DNA from: Ornithinimicrobium tianjinense
GTDB taxonomy: Bacteria; Actinomycetota; Actinomycetes; Actinomycetales; Dermatophilaceae
DNA: 64,000 bases
Assembly (NCBI RefSeq): GCF_014636495.1
Contig: NZ_BMEM01000001.1
Coordinates: 1,504,471-1,568,470 of the forward strand
Direction of reading: 5' to 3'
The notes beneath the pieces were generated by a model. The model did not search any database, had not been told where the DNA came from, and saw only the letters and a program-made list of their open reading frames with translations. Below, piece by piece: positions 3,880-51,326 of the stretch; the stretch's first letter is position 1; every line of letters starts with the position of its first letter. The position numbers and the translations under genes are program-made.

Positions 3880-4737
3880 ATGCTGGAGTTCGCCGACGTC
3901 AGCCCGCTGCGCGACCCGGTGGTCATCGCCGCCTTCGAGGGCTGGAACGACGCCGGCGAGTCCGCGTCCGCCGTGCTCGAGCACCTGCGCCAGGTCTGGT
4001 CGGCCGAGCTCGTGGCCTCCCTCGACCCGGAGGACTACTACGACCTTCAGGTCAACCGCCCCTCGGTAGTCACCGTCGGCGGCGAGCGGACCGTGCGCTG
4101 GCCCTCGACCCGACTCTACGTCGCGCGCAACGCGCCCCTCGGCCGGGACGTCGTCCTCGTGCACGGGATCGAGCCGTCGGTGCGCTGGCGGGCGTTCTGC
4201 ACCGAGCTGCTCGACTTCTGCCAGGACCAGGGGGCCACCCTCCTGGTGACCTTGGGCGGGCTGCTCGCGGACGTGCCGCACACCAGGCCCATCCCGGTGA
4301 GCGTCACCAGCGAGGACCGTGACCTGCTGGAGCAGGGCATCGCGGAGCGGAGCACCTACGAGGGCCCGACCGGCATCGTCGGCGTGCTCGGCGACCTGGC
4401 CCACCGCCGCGACCTGCCCACGCTGTCGGCCTGGGCGGCTGTGCCGCACTACGCCGGCGGGCCGCCCTCCCCCAAGGCCTCGCTCGCGCTGCTCGGTGCG
4501 CTCGAGGAGCTGCTCGGCTGCGTCATCGACGACGCCGAGATGGCCGAGGCGTCCCGGGCGTGGGAGCGAGGCGTGGACGAGCTGGCCGCCTCCGACGAGG
4601 AGGTGGCGGAGTACGTCGCCTCGCTCGAGGACGCCCAGGACACGGCGGACCTGCCCGAGGCCACCGGTGACGCCATCGCGCGCGAGTTCGAGCGCTACCT
4701 GCGCAAGCGCGGCGAGGACGGCTCGCCCCGGGGCTGA
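3880..4737 (+). CDS. PAC2-family protein (proteasome assembly chaperone-like)
   Basis: 285 aa, matching the actinobacterial PAC2 family that is related to eukaryotic proteasome-assembly chaperones. It begins MLEFADVSPLRDPVVIAAFEGWNDAGE, the usual signature, and has the central VLVHGIEPSVRW and VTLGGLLADVPHTRP segments and YAGGPPSPKASLALL. The C-terminus is acidic with a coiled-coil-like helix. The ATG at 3880 has an AGGAGG-type ribosome site at about 3868-3873; a longer upstream reading frame lacks any family similarity. Its role in bacteria is not established. It converges on mshC with a 7-base gap. Confidence 0.9.
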   Translation: MLEFADVSPLRDPVVIAAFEGWNDAGESASAVLEHLRQVWSAELVASLDPEDYYDLQVNRPSVVTVGGERTVRWPSTRLYVARNAPLGRDVVLVHGIEPSVRWRAFCTELLDFCQDQGATLLVTLGGLLADVPHTRPIPVSVTSEDRDLLEQGIAERSTYEGPTGIVGVLGDLAHRRDLPTLSAWAAVPHYAGGPPSPKASLALLGALEELLGCVIDDAEMAEASRAWERGVDELAASDEEVAEYVASLEDAQDTADLPEATGDAIAREFERYLRKRGEDGSPRG

Positions 4738-4744
4738 GTCGCGC

Positions 4745-6022
4745 TCAGCCGAGCAGGTCCAGCCCGAGCAGGGCGTCGACGGCCTCGGGCACCAGGGTGG
4801 ACACGGCCGTCGCACGGCCCGCGTTGACCTGCTCGGCCCAGGCGTCCACCGCGAGCAGGGCCGCAGCGGTGTCGAGGTCGTCGGCGAGCCGCCCGCGCAG
4901 CGTGGTCACGGTCTGCTCGTCGAGGTCGGTCGGCGCGGTCCCCTCGGCGGCGAGCGCGGCTGCCGCGCGCCAGGTGCTCCAGCGCGGCCCTGCCACGGCT
5001 AGGTCGCTGTCGTCCCACTCCCAGGGCGTCCGGTAGTGGTGCGCGAGCAGCGCGAGGCGGATGACCATCGGGTCCACACCCTCGGTGCGCAGCCGGGAGA
5101 CGAGCACGAGGTTGCCCTTCGACTTGCTCATCTTCTCGCCGTCGAGACCCACCATCGCCTGGTGCACGTACGCCCTGGCGAAGGACGTGCCCTCGAGCGC
5201 GGTGGCCTGGACCGCGCTCATCTCGTGGTGGGGGAAGATCAGGTCGGTCCCGCCGCCCTGCACGTCGAACGGGGCGCCCAGGTAGGTGAGCGCGATCGTG
5301 GAGCACTCGATGTGCCACCCCGGCCGCCCGCGCCCGAGGGTGGCACCGTCCCAGGACGGCTCGCCCTCACGGGCCGCCCGCCACATGAGGGGGTCGAGCT
5401 CGTCGCGCTTCCCCGCGCGACCGGGGTCCCCGCCGCGTTCGGCGAAGACCTCGAGCATCTCCTCACGCGTCCAGCCCGAGACCGCGCCGAAGGTGCGCTG
5501 CTGCGCCAGGTCGAGGTAGACGTCGGACGCGCCGTCCTCCAGCGCCCCCTCGTCGGCCCCGACGGGGATCCGGTATGCCGCGCCGCTCGCCAGCAGCCGT
5601 CGGATGGCGTCGACGTCGGCAGGGATGCCCTCCACCGCCCCGACGTAGTGCGTGGGCGCGAGGATGCGCAGCGCCTCCATGTCGGTGCGGAAGAGGTCGA
5701 TCTCCCGTGCGGCGAGGTCCTCCCAGTGCACACCGTCACGGTCGGCGCGCTCGAGCAGCGGCTCGTCGACGTCGGTGACGTTCTGGACGTAGTCGACCTG
5801 CAGGCCGGCGTCCAGCCACACGCGCTGGACCAGGTCGAAGGTCAGGTAGGTCGCCGCGTGCCCGAGGTGGGTCGCGTCGTAGGGGGTGATGCCACATACG
5901 TAGAGGCGCGCCGTCCCCTCGGGCTGCAGCGTGACCGGCCCGCCGGTGGAGCTGTCGTGGACGGTGAGCGGTCCTCCTTCGCCGGGCAGCGCGGGCACGG
6001 GCGGGGAGGTCCAGGACTTCAC
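4745..6022 (-). CDS. mshC: Mycothiol ligase MshC (Cys:GlcN-Ins ligase)
   Basis: ATP-dependent ligase joining cysteine to 1-D-myo-inosityl-2-amino-2-deoxy-glucopyranoside, the penultimate step of mycothiol synthesis. 425 aa, standard length. Class I synthetase signatures: HLGH at 53-56 within [14 protein letters not shown], and KMSKS at 297-301. Zinc ligands are Cys43, the Cys of WHIECS near 240 and the His of FPHHE near 265. The sequence is MshC rather than cysteinyl-tRNA synthetase because it starts MKSW..PxLPG and lacks the long tRNA-binding C-terminus. The GTG start is 6 nt after TAGGCT. A 3 x 37-bp repeat lies just upstream. Confidence 0.95.
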
Positions 6023-6071: not shown

Positions 6072-6182
6072 CGGCAGGAACGCCTGTCCGGTCGAGGAGG
6101 GTGCGGGCCGGCAGGAACGCCTGTCCGGTCGAGGAGGGTGAAGGCCGGCAGGAACGCCTGTCCGGTCGAGGAGGGTGCTGGT
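6072..6182 (+). repeat. Three tandem 37-bp repeats with the GGCAGGAACGCCTGTCCGGT core
   Basis: Units begin at 6072, 6109 and 6146 and are nearly identical; each holds the 20-nt core followed by CGAGGAGGGTG. They fill the gap between mshC and the SCO1664-like gene. The same core recurs in the large array at 49691-50350. CAGG and CCTG inside the core can pair as a small hairpin. No open reading frame in the block looks real. Confidence 0.9.
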
Positions 6183-6196
6183 GGGTGCGGGCGCGA

Positions 6197-7018
6197 TCAC
6201 CACAGCGGCCAGGGCAGCGGGTAGCGGTCGCCGGGCGGCAGCGGCAGGCGCGGGTCGGCGACGAGGCGCTCGAGCCTGAGCCGGAGCGCCGAGGTCTCGC
6301 TGGGCGACAGCAGCTCCTCCATCCCGGAGGACCCGTCAGCCAGGGCGGCCAGCACGCGCTGCACCCGCGCGGTCTCGGTCTCTCCGAGATCCTCACCCGC
6401 CCAGCCCCACAGCACGGTCCGCAGCTTGGGGTGGACGTTGAGGCACAGCCCGTGGTCGAAGCCCCACAACCGGTCCCCCTCGACACCGACGTGCGCGGCC
6501 TTGCGGTCCGCGTTGTCGAGCACGGCGTCGAGGACGGCCAGCGAGCGGAGCCGGGCATCGTCGGCGTGGACGACGACCAGCGGTCGGCCGTCCTCGTCCG
6601 TGGCCTCGACGACCGGCAACCAGCCGCCGTCCTCGACCTCCTCCGGCCGCACGACGTCGACGAGCCCGCCGGCGGGGCGGTGCCCTTCGTGGACGTCCAC
6701 CCAGAGCTGCACGGACCCGGGGCCGAGCGGCCCGTCGCGCAGGACCGTCGGCGGCACGAGGCCCCAGCCGCCGATCTCGCTGATCAGGTAGGCGGCCACC
6801 TCGCGGGCAGCGAGCGTGCGGGGCGGGAAGTCGGCCAGCGGTCGCTCCCCCTGGACCGGCTTGTAGACCGCCCGACGGCCCGTCGGCGTGCCGTCCGGCT
6901 CGAGCAGGTCGACGAGCACCGTGACGTTGGACGCCTCCCGCAGCACCCCGACCGGCTGGATCGCGCTGCGCCGCAGCAGTTCCAGCCCGTCGGCGGTCCT
7001 CACCGGGTCGTCAGGCAC
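6197..7018 (-). CDS. SCO1664-family protein (distant PI3/4-kinase-like fold)
   Basis: 273 aa, one of a trio of uncharacterised proteins conserved across actinobacteria (TIGR03843 type). Residues about 45-75 contain RRAVYKPVQGERPL with the likely ATP-binding Lys. LDAVLDNADRKAAHVG with the following LWGFDHGLCLN resembles the catalytic (DxxxxN) and metal-binding (D) loops of phosphatidylinositol-kinase-like and HipA-like enzymes. The kinase activity is inferred, not shown. GTG start, 12 bases after the DUF3090 stop, so it is probably translated from the same mRNA. The C-terminus runs into the 37-bp repeats. Confidence 0.85.
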   Translation of the reverse strand: MPDDPVRTADGLELLRRSAIQPVGVLREASNVTVLVDLLEPDGTPTGRRAVYKPVQGERPLADFPPRTLAAREVAAYLISEIGGWGLVPPTVLRDGPLGPGSVQLWVDVHEGHRPAGGLVDVVRPEEVEDGGWLPVVEATDEDGRPLVVVHADDARLRSLAVLDAVLDNADRKAAHVGVEGDRLWGFDHGLCLNVHPKLRTVLWGWAGEDLGETETARVQRVLAALADGSSGMEELLSPSETSALRLRLERLVADPRLPLPPGDRYPLPWPLW

Positions 7019-9439: not shown

Positions 9440-9811
9440 TCAGCCCCGACCGCGGTCGACGTCGAACTCCTCGTCGTCCAGACCGACGTAGGTCCCGTCG
9501 TCGTCGAGCTCGTCGTCGTCCTCTTCGTCATCATCAACGTCCTCGTCGTCGAGGTCGTCATCATCGTCATCGTCATCGTCCTCGTCGTCGAGGTCCTCGT
9601 CGTCGTCGTCCTCGTCGAAGATGTCCAGCGGGGTCACCTCGCCGTAGGCCTCCATGAGCGCGTCGTCGTAGTCGGTGAAGGCGGCGGCGATCCGCTCGTA
9701 GGCCTCGACGACGGCCGGGTCGTCGTCGCCACGCTTCACGGCTGCCGTCTCCAGGTGGCGCTCGAGGGCAGCGACGAGCAAGGACAGGGCGGCGCGCGGA
9801 TCTGCGGTCAT
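9440..9811 (-). CDS. Conserved small protein with poly-aspartate tail (often misnamed primosomal protein)
   Basis: 123 aa. Residues 1-65 form a helical domain (DPRAALSLLVAALERHLE, DPAVVEAYERIAAAFTDYDDAL, YGEVTPLDIF) that is conserved in actinobacteria. Residues 66-110 are almost only Asp and Glu, encoded by gac/gat/gag runs that show as a low-complexity (GTC/ATC)n tract on the plus strand at 9523-9620. Function unknown; the annotation as primosomal protein in databases has no visible basis here. ATG start 6 nt after TAACGT. Followed directly by the F420 oxidoreductase gene. Confidence 0.8.
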   Translation of the reverse strand: MTADPRAALSLLVAALERHLETAAVKRGDDDPAVVEAYERIAAAFTDYDDALMEAYGEVTPLDIFDEDDDDEDLDDEDDDDDDDDDLDDEDVDDDEEDDDELDDDGTYVGLDDEEFDVDRGRG

Positions 9812-48162: not shown

Positions 48163-48879
48163 GTGACCCTCACCCCCGCGCTCGAGATGACCGGTGTCAG
48201 CCGTCGCTTCGGGACCACCGAGGCGCTGCGCGGGTTGACCTGGAGCGCTCGGGCGGGCGAGGTCACCTGCGTCCTCGGCCCCAACGGCGCGGGCAAGACC
48301 ACGGCGATGGAGATCGCGACCGGCCTGCAGCGCCCGGACGAAGGCTCGGTCCGGGTGCTGGGCACCGACCCGTGGCACGCACCCGCTGCCCACCGCGCTC
48401 GCGTCGGCGTGATGCTGCAGGACGGGGGGCTGCCCCAGTCCGTCCGTCCCGTGCGGCTGCTGGAGCACCTCGCGCGGTTCTGGGATCGGCCGGCGGACGT
48501 CGACGCGCTCGTGATGCGGCTGGGGATCGACGCGTATGCCGGGACCACCGTGCGCAGGCTCTCCGGCGGCCAGCGTCAACGGGTCGCCCTGGCCGCCGCG
48601 CTCGTCGGTCGACCCGAGGTCGTCTTCCTGGACGAGCCGACCGCCGGCCTGGACCCGCACGCGCGTCGCGAGGTGCACGCCCTGGTCCGCGAGACCGCTG
48701 ACTCAGGTGTCGCCACCGTCGTGACCACGCACTCCTTCGAGGAGGCCGAGCGCCTTGCTGACCGGGTGGTGGTGATCGTGGCCGGGAGGGTCGCCGCGGC
48801 CGGCACCGTCGCCGAGGTCGCCGGACCGCAGGGCCTCGAGACGGCCTACTTCGCCCTCGCGGACGGGAGCGCCCGATGA
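48163..48879 (+). CDS. ABC-2 exporter ATP-binding subunit
   Basis: 238-aa ATPase. LGPNGAGKTTAMEIATGL, VMLQDGGLPQSVRPVRLLEHLARF, LSGGQRQRVALAAAL, VVFLDEPTAGLDPHAR, THSFEEAERLADRV. This pair of genes stands divergent to sufR in many actinobacteria, and between sufR and ctaA in mycobacteria. Substrate unknown. GTG start; overlaps the permease ATG by 4 bases. Confidence 0.92.
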   Translation: MTLTPALEMTGVSRRFGTTEALRGLTWSARAGEVTCVLGPNGAGKTTAMEIATGLQRPDEGSVRVLGTDPWHAPAAHRARVGVMLQDGGLPQSVRPVRLLEHLARFWDRPADVDALVMRLGIDAYAGTTVRRLSGGQRQRVALAAALVGRPEVVFLDEPTAGLDPHARREVHALVRETADSGVATVVTTHSFEEAERLADRVVVIVAGRVAAAGTVAEVAGPQGLETAYFALADGSAR

Positions 48880-49679
48880 CGATGCCGACCCGGGACCAGC
48901 ACGGCTCCGCCCCGCCGCACCCCGGCCCCGCCTCCGCGACCGTGCGGGTCCTCGCCCAGGCCCGGTTCGAGGCGGTCGGGCTGCTGCGGCACGGCGAGCA
49001 GCTGCTGGTGTCCATGGTGCTGCCGCTGCTAGCCCTGGTGGGCCTCAGCATGGTGAGCTACCCGGACCTGACCGTAGGGCCGTGGGCGGACGCCCGGCGG
49101 ATCGACGTCCTCACCCCCGGGGTCCTCGCGCTCGTGGTGATGTCGACCGCCTTCACCGGTCAGGCGATCCTCCTGGCCTTCGAGCGCCGCTGGGGCGTGC
49201 TGCGGCTGCTCGGCACGACTCCCCTGGGCCGGGGCGGCCTGCTCCTGGCCAAGGCCATCTCGGTCGTCCTCGTGCTGGTGGCACAGCTGGCCGTGGTCTG
49301 CGCCGTGGGCGTCGCGCTCGGCTGGCGCCCCGAGCCGATCGGGTTGCTACCCGCGGTGCTGGCCGTCGTGCTGGGTGCCGGAGCGTTCGCCTCGCTCGCC
49401 GCCTGCCTGGGAGGGGCGCTGCGCGCCGAGGCGGTCCTCGCGCTGGCCAACCTCGTCTGGGTGCTGCTGACCGCTGTCGGTGGGGTGCTGCTCCCGGCGC
49501 ACGCGCTGCCCGCACCGCTCGGGACGGTGGTCTCGGTCCTGCCATCGGCCGCTCTCGGCGACGCGATGCGCGGGGCCCTGGTGGACGGAACGGTCGTGTG
49601 GACCGCCTTCGCGGTGCTGCTCGCGTGGGCGCTGGGTGCCGCGCTCGTCGCCCGGCGGCTGCTCCGCTGGTCCGACTGA
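48876..49679 (+). CDS. ABC-2 exporter permease
   Basis: 267 aa with about six hydrophobic segments between residues 40 and 265, of the ABC2-membrane type: LVSMVLPLLALVGLSMV, VLALVVMSTAFTGQAILLAFERRWGVLRLLGTTPLGR and the C-terminal AFAVLLAWALGAALVARRLLRW. Partner of the preceding ATPase. The repeat array begins 11 bases after its stop. Confidence 0.9.
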   Translation: MTMPTRDQHGSAPPHPGPASATVRVLAQARFEAVGLLRHGEQLLVSMVLPLLALVGLSMVSYPDLTVGPWADARRIDVLTPGVLALVVMSTAFTGQAILLAFERRWGVLRLLGTTPLGRGGLLLAKAISVVLVLVAQLAVVCAVGVALGWRPEPIGLLPAVLAVVLGAGAFASLAACLGGALRAEAVLALANLVWVLLTAVGGVLLPAHALPAPLGTVVSVLPSAALGDAMRGALVDGTVVWTAFAVLLAWALGAALVARRLLRWSD

Positions 49680-49690
49680 GAGCGACGTTC

Positions 49691-49921
49691 CCGACCGGAC
49701 AGGCCGCAGTGCCACCGACCCGACCGGACAGGCCGCAGTGCCACCCACCCGACCGGACAGGCCGCAGCGCCACCCACCCGAACGGACAGGCCGCAGCGCC
49801 ACCCACCCGACCGGACAGGCCGTAGTGCCACCCACCCGGCCGGACAGGCGCTAGTGCCACCCACCCGACCGGACAGGCCGCAGTGCCACCGACCCGACCG
49901 GACAGGCCGCAGCGCCAGCTT
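49691..49921 (-). repeat. Eight 29-bp tandem repeats (A block), first unit 28 bp
   Basis: Units begin at 49691, 49719, 49748, 49777, 49806, 49835, 49864 and 49893. The complement holds the core GGCACTGCGGCCTGTCCGGT in most units; the CCTGTCCGGT half is nearly constant (49777 carries one change) and the GGCAnnnncG half varies. Same family as the 22-bp repeats but in the opposite orientation. No spacers of differing sequence, so not CRISPR. Confidence 0.95.
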
Positions 49922-50010
49922 CGGCAGGAGCCCCTGTCCGGTGTGGCACTACCGCGCGTCCGCGCGGCAGGAACGCCTGTCCGGTGCGGCAGGAACGCCT
50001 GTCCGGTTGG
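49922..50010 (+). repeat. Short B-block repeats, three copies
   Basis: Plus-strand copies of GGCAGGAACGCCTGTCCGGT at 49966 and 49988 (22-bp period) and a degenerate copy at 49923. They face the A block, so A and B could pair into a long stem. Confidence 0.85.
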
Positions 50011-50020
50011 GTGGTGAGGG

Positions 50021-50119
50021 TCAGCGCGGGGCCGAGACGACGGAAAGCTTCTCCGCCGCCATGGTGGCGACGGCCGCGATCGCCGCGGAGCCCGCCATGT
50101 GCAGGGCCACCGCGAGAGC
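50021..50119 (-). pseudogene. 99-bp duplicate of the ctaA 3' end
   Basis: Matches 50361-50459, the last 33 codons or so of ctaA including its stop, at 95 of 99 positions; four substitutions change the protein (KLSVVSAPR for KLFAVSAPR). The offset is exactly 340 bp. The copy has no promoter or start and is flanked by repeats of both orientations on each side, so it looks like a piece left by unequal recombination. Confidence 0.85.
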
Positions 50120-50136
50120 GGCCACAACGCCACGGA

Positions 50137-50194
50137 CCCGACCGGACAGGCGGTAGGGCCACCGACCCGACCGGACAGGCCGCAGTGCCAGGCT
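50137..50194 (-). repeat. Two A-type 29-bp repeats
   Basis: Units begin at 50137 and 50166, same period as the A block at 49691-49921. Confidence 0.85.
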
Positions 50195-50196
50195 TG

Positions 50197-50350
50197 GGCA
50201 AGAACGCCAGTCCGGCGTGGCAGGAACGCCAGTCCGGCGTGGCAGGAACGCCTGTCCGGTGCGGCAGGAACGGCTGTCCGGTGCGGCAGGAACGCCAGTC
50301 CGGTGCGGCAGGAACGCCTGTCCGGTGCGGCACTAACGCCTGTCCGGTTG
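50197..50350 (+). repeat. Seven 22-bp tandem repeats (B block)
   Basis: Units begin at 50197, 50219, 50241, 50263, 50285, 50307 and 50329. Core GGCAGGAACGCCTGTCCGGT with changes such as CGCCAGTCCGG; the last unit GGCACTAACGCCTGTCCGGT is a hybrid of the A and B forms. It ends 11 bases before the ctaA stop. Confidence 0.95.
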
Positions 50351-50360
50351 GGTGGGAGGG

Positions 50361-51326
50361 TCAGCGCGGGGCCGAGACGGCGAAGAGCTTCTCCGCCGCC
50401 ATGGTGGCCACGGCCGCGATCGCCGCGGAGCCCGCCATGTGCAGGGCCACCGCGAGAGCCGGCACGTTGTTGAAGAACTGGTAGTAGCCCAGCAGCCCCT
50501 GCGCCACGACGAGCACGGCGAGCAGCGCGAGGACCCGCTTCACCGGTGCCGGCCACGCGTCGCGCCGGGCGAGGAAAACCGCTGCCACGGTGGCGGCGAC
50601 GAGCACGTACACGGGGGCAGCGTGCAGCCGGGTGATCCAGTAGGGGTTGAAGCTGTGCCGGGCGACCACGGCGGCGTCGCCTGAGTGCGGTCCGGTGCCG
50701 GTGACCAGCGTGCCGAGGTAGATCGCGAGCCCGGCCGACACGACGATGACCACCCCGAGCACGCGTGCCCGGCGCGCCTGCTGGCCCGTGACCTGGTCAC
50801 GGCGCTCCGCCACCGCGACCTCCTCGAGCGAGGCGCGCCGCGTGCGGTTCACGAGCACCGCCGCCAGGGCGACGATCAACGAGGAGAGCACGAAGTGGAT
50901 GCCGACGATCCACGGGTTCAGCCCGGTGCGCACGGTGATGCCGCCGACCACGGCCTGCACGATGATCAGCACGGCGATGGCCACGGCGATCCTCAGGTAG
51001 GCGGGGTGACGGTCGCGCAGGCGGAGCACGGCGAGGAAGGTGAGGACCGCGATGAGCACGAGCAGCAAGGTGAGCGTCCGGTTGCCGAACTCGATGTAGC
51101 CGTGCAGGCCCATGGCCGGCGTGTTGGTCCACGAGGCGTCGGTGCACCGGGGCCAGGTCGGGCAGCCCAGTCCGCTGCCGGTGAGCCGCACCGCTCCCCC
51201 GGTGACGATGAGCAGCGCGTTGGCGAGGAGGGAGGCCCAGGCCGTCGCACGCACCCACCCGGTCACCTCTCTCGGCATCAGCCGGTCGGTCAGGGAGGAC
51301 TGGGCGGGCCGGGTCGTGGTCGTCAT
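50361..51326 (-). CDS. ctaA: Heme A synthase CtaA (COX15)
   Basis: 321-aa membrane oxygenase with eight hydrophobic segments that turns heme O to heme A for cytochrome c oxidase. Conserved: VTGGAVRLTGSGLGCPTWPRC near residue 45, the heme His in GLHGYIEFGNR, VGIHFVLSSL, and late His in TRLHAAPVYV and VALHMAGSAA. ATG start with a weak GAGAG ribosome site. The 3' end is duplicated in the repeat array. Followed by ctaB on the same strand after 22 bases (upstream). Confidence 0.95.
   Translation of the reverse strand: MTTTTRPAQSSLTDRLMPREVTGWVRATAWASLLANALLIVTGGAVRLTGSGLGCPTWPRCTDASWTNTPAMGLHGYIEFGNRTLTLLLVLIAVLTFLAVLRLRDRHPAYLRIAVAIAVLIIVQAVVGGITVRTGLNPWIVGIHFVLSSLIVALAAVLVNRTRRASLEEVAVAERRDQVTGQQARRARVLGVVIVVSAGLAIYLGTLVTGTGPHSGDAAVVARHSFNPYWITRLHAAPVYVLVAATVAAVFLARRDAWPAPVKRVLALLAVLVVAQGLLGYYQFFNNVPALAVALHMAGSAAIAAVATMAAEKLFAVSAPR

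Follow-up and report, generated by a model that had tools for sequence, protein, structure and literature searches.

REPIN-RAYT elements, described by Bertels and Rainey in 2011, are reportedly short inverted pairs that are dispersed as a population and persist for long. Iteron arrays with a DnaA box are built of 22-bp direct repeats at near-helical spacing, and DNA uptake sequences occur as species dialects with inverted pairs at gene ends. Passages of Di Nocera et al. (2013, PMC3733652) describe REPs as forming inverted pairs, lying at the 3' ends of genes, inserting at times into coding sequence and supplying stop codons, and include CGTC-tagged REPs that have no dedicated transposase; the main text of that paper never uses the word 'Actinobacteria'. 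In passages of Subirana and Messeguer (2019, PMC6749651), scattered but related tandem arrays are grouped into satellite families, which the authors take as a sign of a satellite transposition mechanism, and non-coding families of long repeats are given only for Leptospira interrogans and Methanocella conradii.

The arrays examined here share with the transposase-less CGTC-tagged REPs, as passages of PMC3733652 portray them, a unit of ∼20–40 bp, a high copy number, inverted pairs, a position behind stop codons, a preference for convergent and codirectional junctions, some genic copies, and the occasional supply of a stop codon. They differ in that no palindromic stem is conserved, the core of this genome has no GTAG tag, the copies form long direct-repeat arrays with a locus-specific period, and the wording is strongly species-specific within one genus. 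Scattered related arrays are also a trait of the prokaryotic satellite families, but head-to-head order and 3'-end placement are absent from the description in those passages of PMC6749651. DNA uptake sequences have similar dialects and gene-end pairs, whereas the copies reported here are clustered in arrays. The open-licence literature yielded no paper that treats this core or comparable arrays from this group. REP-like families have mostly been explained through RAYT. The present family is distributed in the same way in a genus without a RAYT match, and a common layout with species-specific wording recurs in several species, so that the spread and the stop-codon placement of transposase-less REPs become testable.

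The array locus between the permease gene and ctaA

The window, that is, the whole 64-kb stretch of DNA analysed, includes a convergent junction between an ABC-2 type transporter permease gene (48876–49679, plus strand) and an intact ctaA (50361–51326, minus strand; PF02628, COX15-CtaA). Between these genes a single 20-nt core, GGCAnnnnnGCCTGTCCGGT, forms opposed arrays in a head-to-head layout, as a sequence-only reading of the window had claimed. Block A (49694–49916, minus strand) begins 15 bp past the permease stop codon and contains eight copies of the core at a 29-bp period, and block B (49923–50007, plus strand) contains three recognisable cores, at 49923, 49966 and 49988, with one decayed unit between the first two. 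The second A-B group of the same reading was confirmed as block A' (50141–50189, minus strand), which has two cores at a 29-bp period and is part of a duplicated unit, and block B' (50197–50348, plus strand), whose seven cores at a 22-bp period stop 13 bp short of the ctaA stop codon. The whole window holds 20 matches to the core at up to three mismatches, compared with a mean of 0.13 in shuffles.

Enclosed by the arrays is a copy of the ctaA 3' end (50016–50125, minus strand), the second match to ctaA within this genome. It had been put at 99 bp and 96% identity; its existence and its offset of 340 bp stand, but the alignment with 50356–50465 covers 110 nt at 95%. Leftward of the copy the homology extends through the spacer as far as the terminal part of block B, which makes the duplicated unit A', B' and the ctaA end. 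The proposed tandem duplication, of 340 bp and taking in the gene end, is supported, and it is plausible that the repeats drove it. By eye, another gene end (gcctgagcgcccc..., L130 6823–6930) seems to have been duplicated along with array copies in the manner of ctaA and is likely a second case.

A further array of the family lies elsewhere in the window (6073–6166, plus strand), with three identical cores at a 37-bp period; it follows the stop codon of a minus-strand gene (6197–7018) at a distance of 31 bp and had been overlooked in the sequence-only reading. Rfam gave no match above gathering scores at the ctaA locus, the two matches seen being at chance level, and a tRNA scan of seven array stretches detected none. 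The window also contains one tRNA-Leu, unrelated to the arrays, and a CGT-rich tandem stretch of low complexity (9496–9617) that probably encodes an acidic run.

Copies, core and periods across the genome

A genome-wide search for the core with up to three mismatches returned 281 matches (134 + 147), while the reversed-pattern control returned one (0 + 1); the ctaA locus is therefore not unique. Mapping of 37 stretches fetched around the matches listed places at least 280 copies at no fewer than 45 loci, the window included, and may miss loci that have only degenerate copies. The core logo consists of a fixed GGCA and a fixed GCCTGTCCGGT flanking five variable bases. A modal period of 22 bp applies to 28 of the 57 arms that contain two or more copies, and the remainder range from 21 to 43 bp. 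The spacer is specific to the locus and the core is common to the family.

The core is more strongly conserved than the spacers. Within arrays, the mismatch per site is 0.048 at the 15 conserved core positions, a value that the choice of copies by core similarity (at most three mismatches) lowers by itself, and 0.206 at the five variable core positions of the same copies, which are free of that constraint; spacers of 2 nt show 0.251 and longer spacers 0.124.

Runs of N lie inside the arrays at L112, L120, L124 and L144, and contigs C1, C3 and C5 each have an end near an array. The assembly thus seems to be broken by the arrays, and the copy numbers are to be read as lower bounds. Such arrays are of practical concern in that they break genome assemblies and can be mistaken for genes. 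At two unrelated loci the segments between the arms (L132 4150–4260 and L134 4250–4370) share CCGCTGACGTTGACGTCAA and appear similar over a longer stretch, perhaps as the remnant of a common insert.

Placement, order and polarity

The 45 mapped loci comprise 17 convergent, 20 codirectional and 4 divergent junctions, 2 coding insertions, and 2 loci at contig ends. In comparison, 142 array-free junctions longer than 40 bp in the same stretches are convergent in 16, codirectional in 80 and divergent in 46 cases; with gene calls made by our codon-usage script, array loci show an excess of convergent junctions (p = 4e-5) and a deficit of divergent ones (p = 0.005). Arms that read ACCGGAC pointing away from the preceding gene end number 46, at a median distance of 8 bp from it and at 15 bp or less in 31; several overlap a TGA stop codon by its A. 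At L139 (4056–4071) and L146 (4036–4051) the core and the gene end overlap, so that the final codons and a TAG stop come from the core; each of the two proteins ends in RPDRR.

Loci with copies in both orientations follow one head-to-head order, in which ACCGGAC points right in the first copy and left in the last, in 21 of 24 cases. The exceptions are L113 and L146, each due to one match with three mismatches, and L136, which lies at the end of a contig. All mixed loci of two relatives have this order too, 11 of 11 in G004 and 7 of 7 in G013. Codirectional arrays of a single orientation show a tendency only, with polarity toward the upstream gene in 23 against 10 (p = 0.018) when pooled. The ratios are 9:3 in this genome, 5:2 in G013, 1:1 in G006 and 8:4 in G004, the first being the script's 8:2 as amended by eye, with L146 moved to the cases for and L113 to those against because the copy in the odd orientation is a lone match with three mismatches. 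Two G002 arrays outside this test split 1:1.

Insertions into coding sequence

One array lies in frame within a glycosyltransferase gene (L125 4814–4874) and adds 20 amino acids, which are absent from all 13 aligned orthologous loci of relatives. At the one empty site examined, that of L125, no target-site duplication is evident. The second coding array (L142 5011–5136) falls in a linker of an ABC ATPase (4222–5346), where four array copies make a proline-rich stretch between the ATPase domain and the C-terminal part. Pfam searches with the genes that arrays flank at L121, L137 and L130 returned no match; these searches and the Y1_Tnp profile, applied across the genus, identified no moving enzyme, and no transposition event was observed.

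Dialects in related genomes

The strict core pattern gives 0 to 5 matches per genome in the other members of the genus, the same as the control, from which the core could be taken as private to one species; a looser pattern refutes this with 85 matches in G004; eight further genomes have 1 to 7 matches each, and 21 have none. Sampling of ten 20-kb stretches in each of six relatives uncovered the G004 word ACCGGACGCGCGTTCCTGCC (22 bp), which is identical to the present core at 18 of 20 bases, and a G002 word, CGACCGGACACGcgaaaaggcc (22 bp), with 11 copies in the 5% of the genome sampled. Weaker signs of such arrays were seen in the samples of G010, G012, G015 and G027, and several of seven extra stretches viewed in the low-copy genomes proved to be 22-bp arrays (L328, L332, L334). 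At least four words (the present one, that of G004, that of G002, and those of the low-copy genomes) are thus spellings of one family.

G013 and G006 carry different tandem repeats at the ctaA 3' end, which was read at 30 loci across the genus. The G013 word, which may belong to the same family, has 34 matches in G013 and 0 or 1 elsewhere; the G006 word has 7 matches in G006 and none in other genomes. G006 and G010 share a different word. Most array loci are not common to different species, and a strict positional function is hence unsupported. Arrays do occupy the malQ / M1-peptidase junction in this genome (L121), G004 (L311) and G006 (L213), in three dialects, and the ctaA 3' end in this genome, G013 and G006, each with its own word. 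The sharing of a single locus by two genomes is close to the chance expectation when each has ∼60 arms, and the threefold sharing of the malQ / M1-peptidase junction is suggestive only.

DnaA-box-like caps and helical phase

In G004, TTNTCCACAGG follows two bases after the last core at 35 of 53 inner arm ends. These caps are DnaA-box-like, of the form TTNTCCACA, and stand in a fixed register; array stretches of G004 totalling 184 kb have 37 TTNTCCACA sites, 35 of them in this register. A random G004 sample has 6 DnaA-like sites, and overlaps the array loci L224 and L232, which puts the true background below 6 per 200 kb. In the array stretches of this genome (302 kb) there are four TTNTCCACA sites, two of them in register (L121 5271 and L135 4193), and G013 has one; none occurs in the window or in the G006 stretches that cover 16 of 16 copies. 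DnaA is presented as a roadblock to RNA polymerase in a passage of PMC11317965. A link between DnaA and the arrays may be taken as a lead from the G004 layout and not as a result for the window. Among 26 arms with periods of 25 bp or more, the period tends toward an integral number of helical turns (Rayleigh p ∼0.016), in a weak test that sets the 22-bp arms aside.

Relation to REP elements and RNA folding

The sequence-only reading had called the repeats REP/BIME-type, a label that agrees with their distribution (stop codons, convergent junctions, inverted pairs, rare coding insertion) but not with the palindromic stem and RAYT of such elements. The units are short, high in copy number and extragenic (280 copies at 45 loci, 2 of them coding), they form inverted pairs (one order at 21 of 24 mixed loci), and they sit at 3' ends in convergent or codirectional junctions. 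A conserved palindromic stem within the single unit is weak in the GGAAC variant of this genome (z −1.8, the best single-core value) and absent in the common CTAAC variant (z −0.6) and in G004, G002 and G006 (z ∼0 or positive). The logo of the present core has neither GTAG nor CGTC; the G004 word has CGTC without a stem. That no RAYT accompanies the arrays, as had also been noted for the window, extends to the whole genome and to the genus: the Y1_Tnp profile (PF01797) matched in none of 31 genomes of the genus, and a positive control matched in 5 of 14 known genomes. We call the family a REP-like variant, since tests for a conserved palindrome and for RAYT found neither. Inverted, dispersed pairs are what it has in common with REPIN-RAYT elements, from which it differs by the lack of RAYT in all 31 genomes.

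Blocks A and B had been proposed to pair into a long stem. A transcript spanning the locus indeed has a strong predicted fold (z −7.6), as would that of any inverted repeat; at the head-to-head loci L117 and L139 the predicted folds reach z −15 to −20 relative to shuffles. Single-orientation arrays fold inconsistently, with z of +1.1 and −1.0 at L119. Intrinsic-terminator-like sites, in which a T run follows a G+C-rich hairpin, number zero in window positions 49600–50500. Canonical-looking hairpins adjoin some arrays elsewhere (L112, L137 and L143, by eye).

Origin and possible role

We favor, with a probability of about one half, a dispersed REP/BIME-like family without RAYT that survives at gene ends, grows by tandem duplication, and forms two-way boundaries through a protein-bound core. 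Single cores or head-to-head pairs would reach new sites by a route other than RAYT, and we infer a mover of that kind. Inserted cores would survive mainly right behind stop codons, where each locus would grow by tandem duplication of the core with its local spacer, a mode of growth that would lead to locus-specific periods; at ctaA, the tandem duplication would also have copied 110 bp of the gene end. The core would be kept while the spacers drift, most likely through recognition by a DNA-binding protein, which may be the mover or a host protein, and it is probably maintained as a binding site for that protein. Once bound, a head-to-head array would probably act as a boundary in both directions between convergent transcripts. 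What is established directly is the dispersal, placement and order of the arrays, an insertion whose site is empty in relatives, the dialects of other species, the lack of RAYT, and a core that is better conserved than its spacers; the mover, the binding protein and the boundary role are inferences.

A tentative alternative places selection first: the arrays would be maintained as protein-bound transcription stops, or roadblocks, whose word changes between species together with the binding protein, with DnaA taking part in some species by way of the box at the inner end. The array layout, the adjacency to stop codons and the conservation of the core over the spacers are all consistent with it, as are the capped inner ends of G004 (35 of 53, 2 nt after the last core, with 35 of 37 sites in register), the two of four sites in the same register in this genome, the block to RNA polymerase by DnaA in the passage of PMC11317965, the malQ / M1-peptidase junction with its three dialects, and the lean of the longer periods to helical turns. 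Roadblocks under selection are harder to reconcile with loci that are mostly not common to species, with divergent and coding insertions, with a DnaA-like cap that is missing in the window, in G006 and at nearly all arrays of this genome and G013, with hairpins beside some arrays, by which the arrays are not the sole stop, and with a phase test that is weak and omits the 22-bp arms. It is unlikely that RNA is the active form, with hairpins of the arms ending or protecting mRNAs as proposed for REPs. The folds of head-to-head loci in the window, L117 and L139 lie far below shuffles, and polarity and 3' location imply that arrays are transcribed; yet any inverted repeat folds in this manner, single cores fold weakly, single-orientation arrays give no consistent fold, and the window locus has no intrinsic-terminator-like site. 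A rather doubtful extension is a genus-wide network of head-to-head tandem binding sites at gene ends, in which the word and a DNA-binding protein would change together from one species to the next and which would in some species be coupled to DnaA by a box in fixed register; the arrays would then be protein-bound boundaries to transcription in both directions, and these may respond to the replication initiator.

Ordinary local minisatellites, formed by slippage without dispersal or function, would account for the locus-specific periods and spacers and for the tandem duplications, and in public genomes unrelated tandem repeats with GCCTGTCCGGT are common and predominate among the matches listed (at least 81). 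This origin is very improbable in view of one 20-nt core at 45 loci with different spacers, its recurrence in G004 at 18 of 20 bases, which is beyond slippage, and the clean insertion into a coding gene. Movement by RAYT as a classical REPIN/BIME family would match the inverted pairs, 3'-end location, coding insertions and stop supply of REPs in the passages of PMC3733652, but we consider it highly improbable given the lack of Y1_Tnp in 31 genomes and a palindrome that is not conserved; a resident RAYT as mover is refuted by the same count, with which a long-ago loss remains compatible. Finally, the arrays could serve a plasmid Rep protein as iteron-like origins or as decoys, a role to which the G004 layout of 22-bp direct repeats, near-helical spacing and a DnaA-box-like site in register lends a likeness. 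This last reading is scarcely credible, as the arrays here occupy dozens of chromosomal loci behind genes, with no replicon or plasmid match. Pfam found no Rep domain in 20 genes in or close to array flanks, which are some of the flanking genes, and neither the arrays of this genome and G004 in 72,556 plasmid records nor those of this genome in 50,697 phage records had a convincing match (best E 0.4), by which a plasmid or phage origin is also rejected.

Additional observations

In a MAG of a different actinobacterial family, Propionibacteriaceae, ACCGGACAGGC occurs head to head directly past a stop codon (L086 2428–2481 and L102 2148–2201); these loci were found by searching for the word and not for the layout, and they look similar. 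The word CACGGCATACC (GGTATGCCGTG) recurs near gene starts in several genomes of the genus, upstream of genes at L112 and L127 and in the G027 and G010 samples, with four copies at four loci in G010 and four at three in G027, and may be a promoter element.
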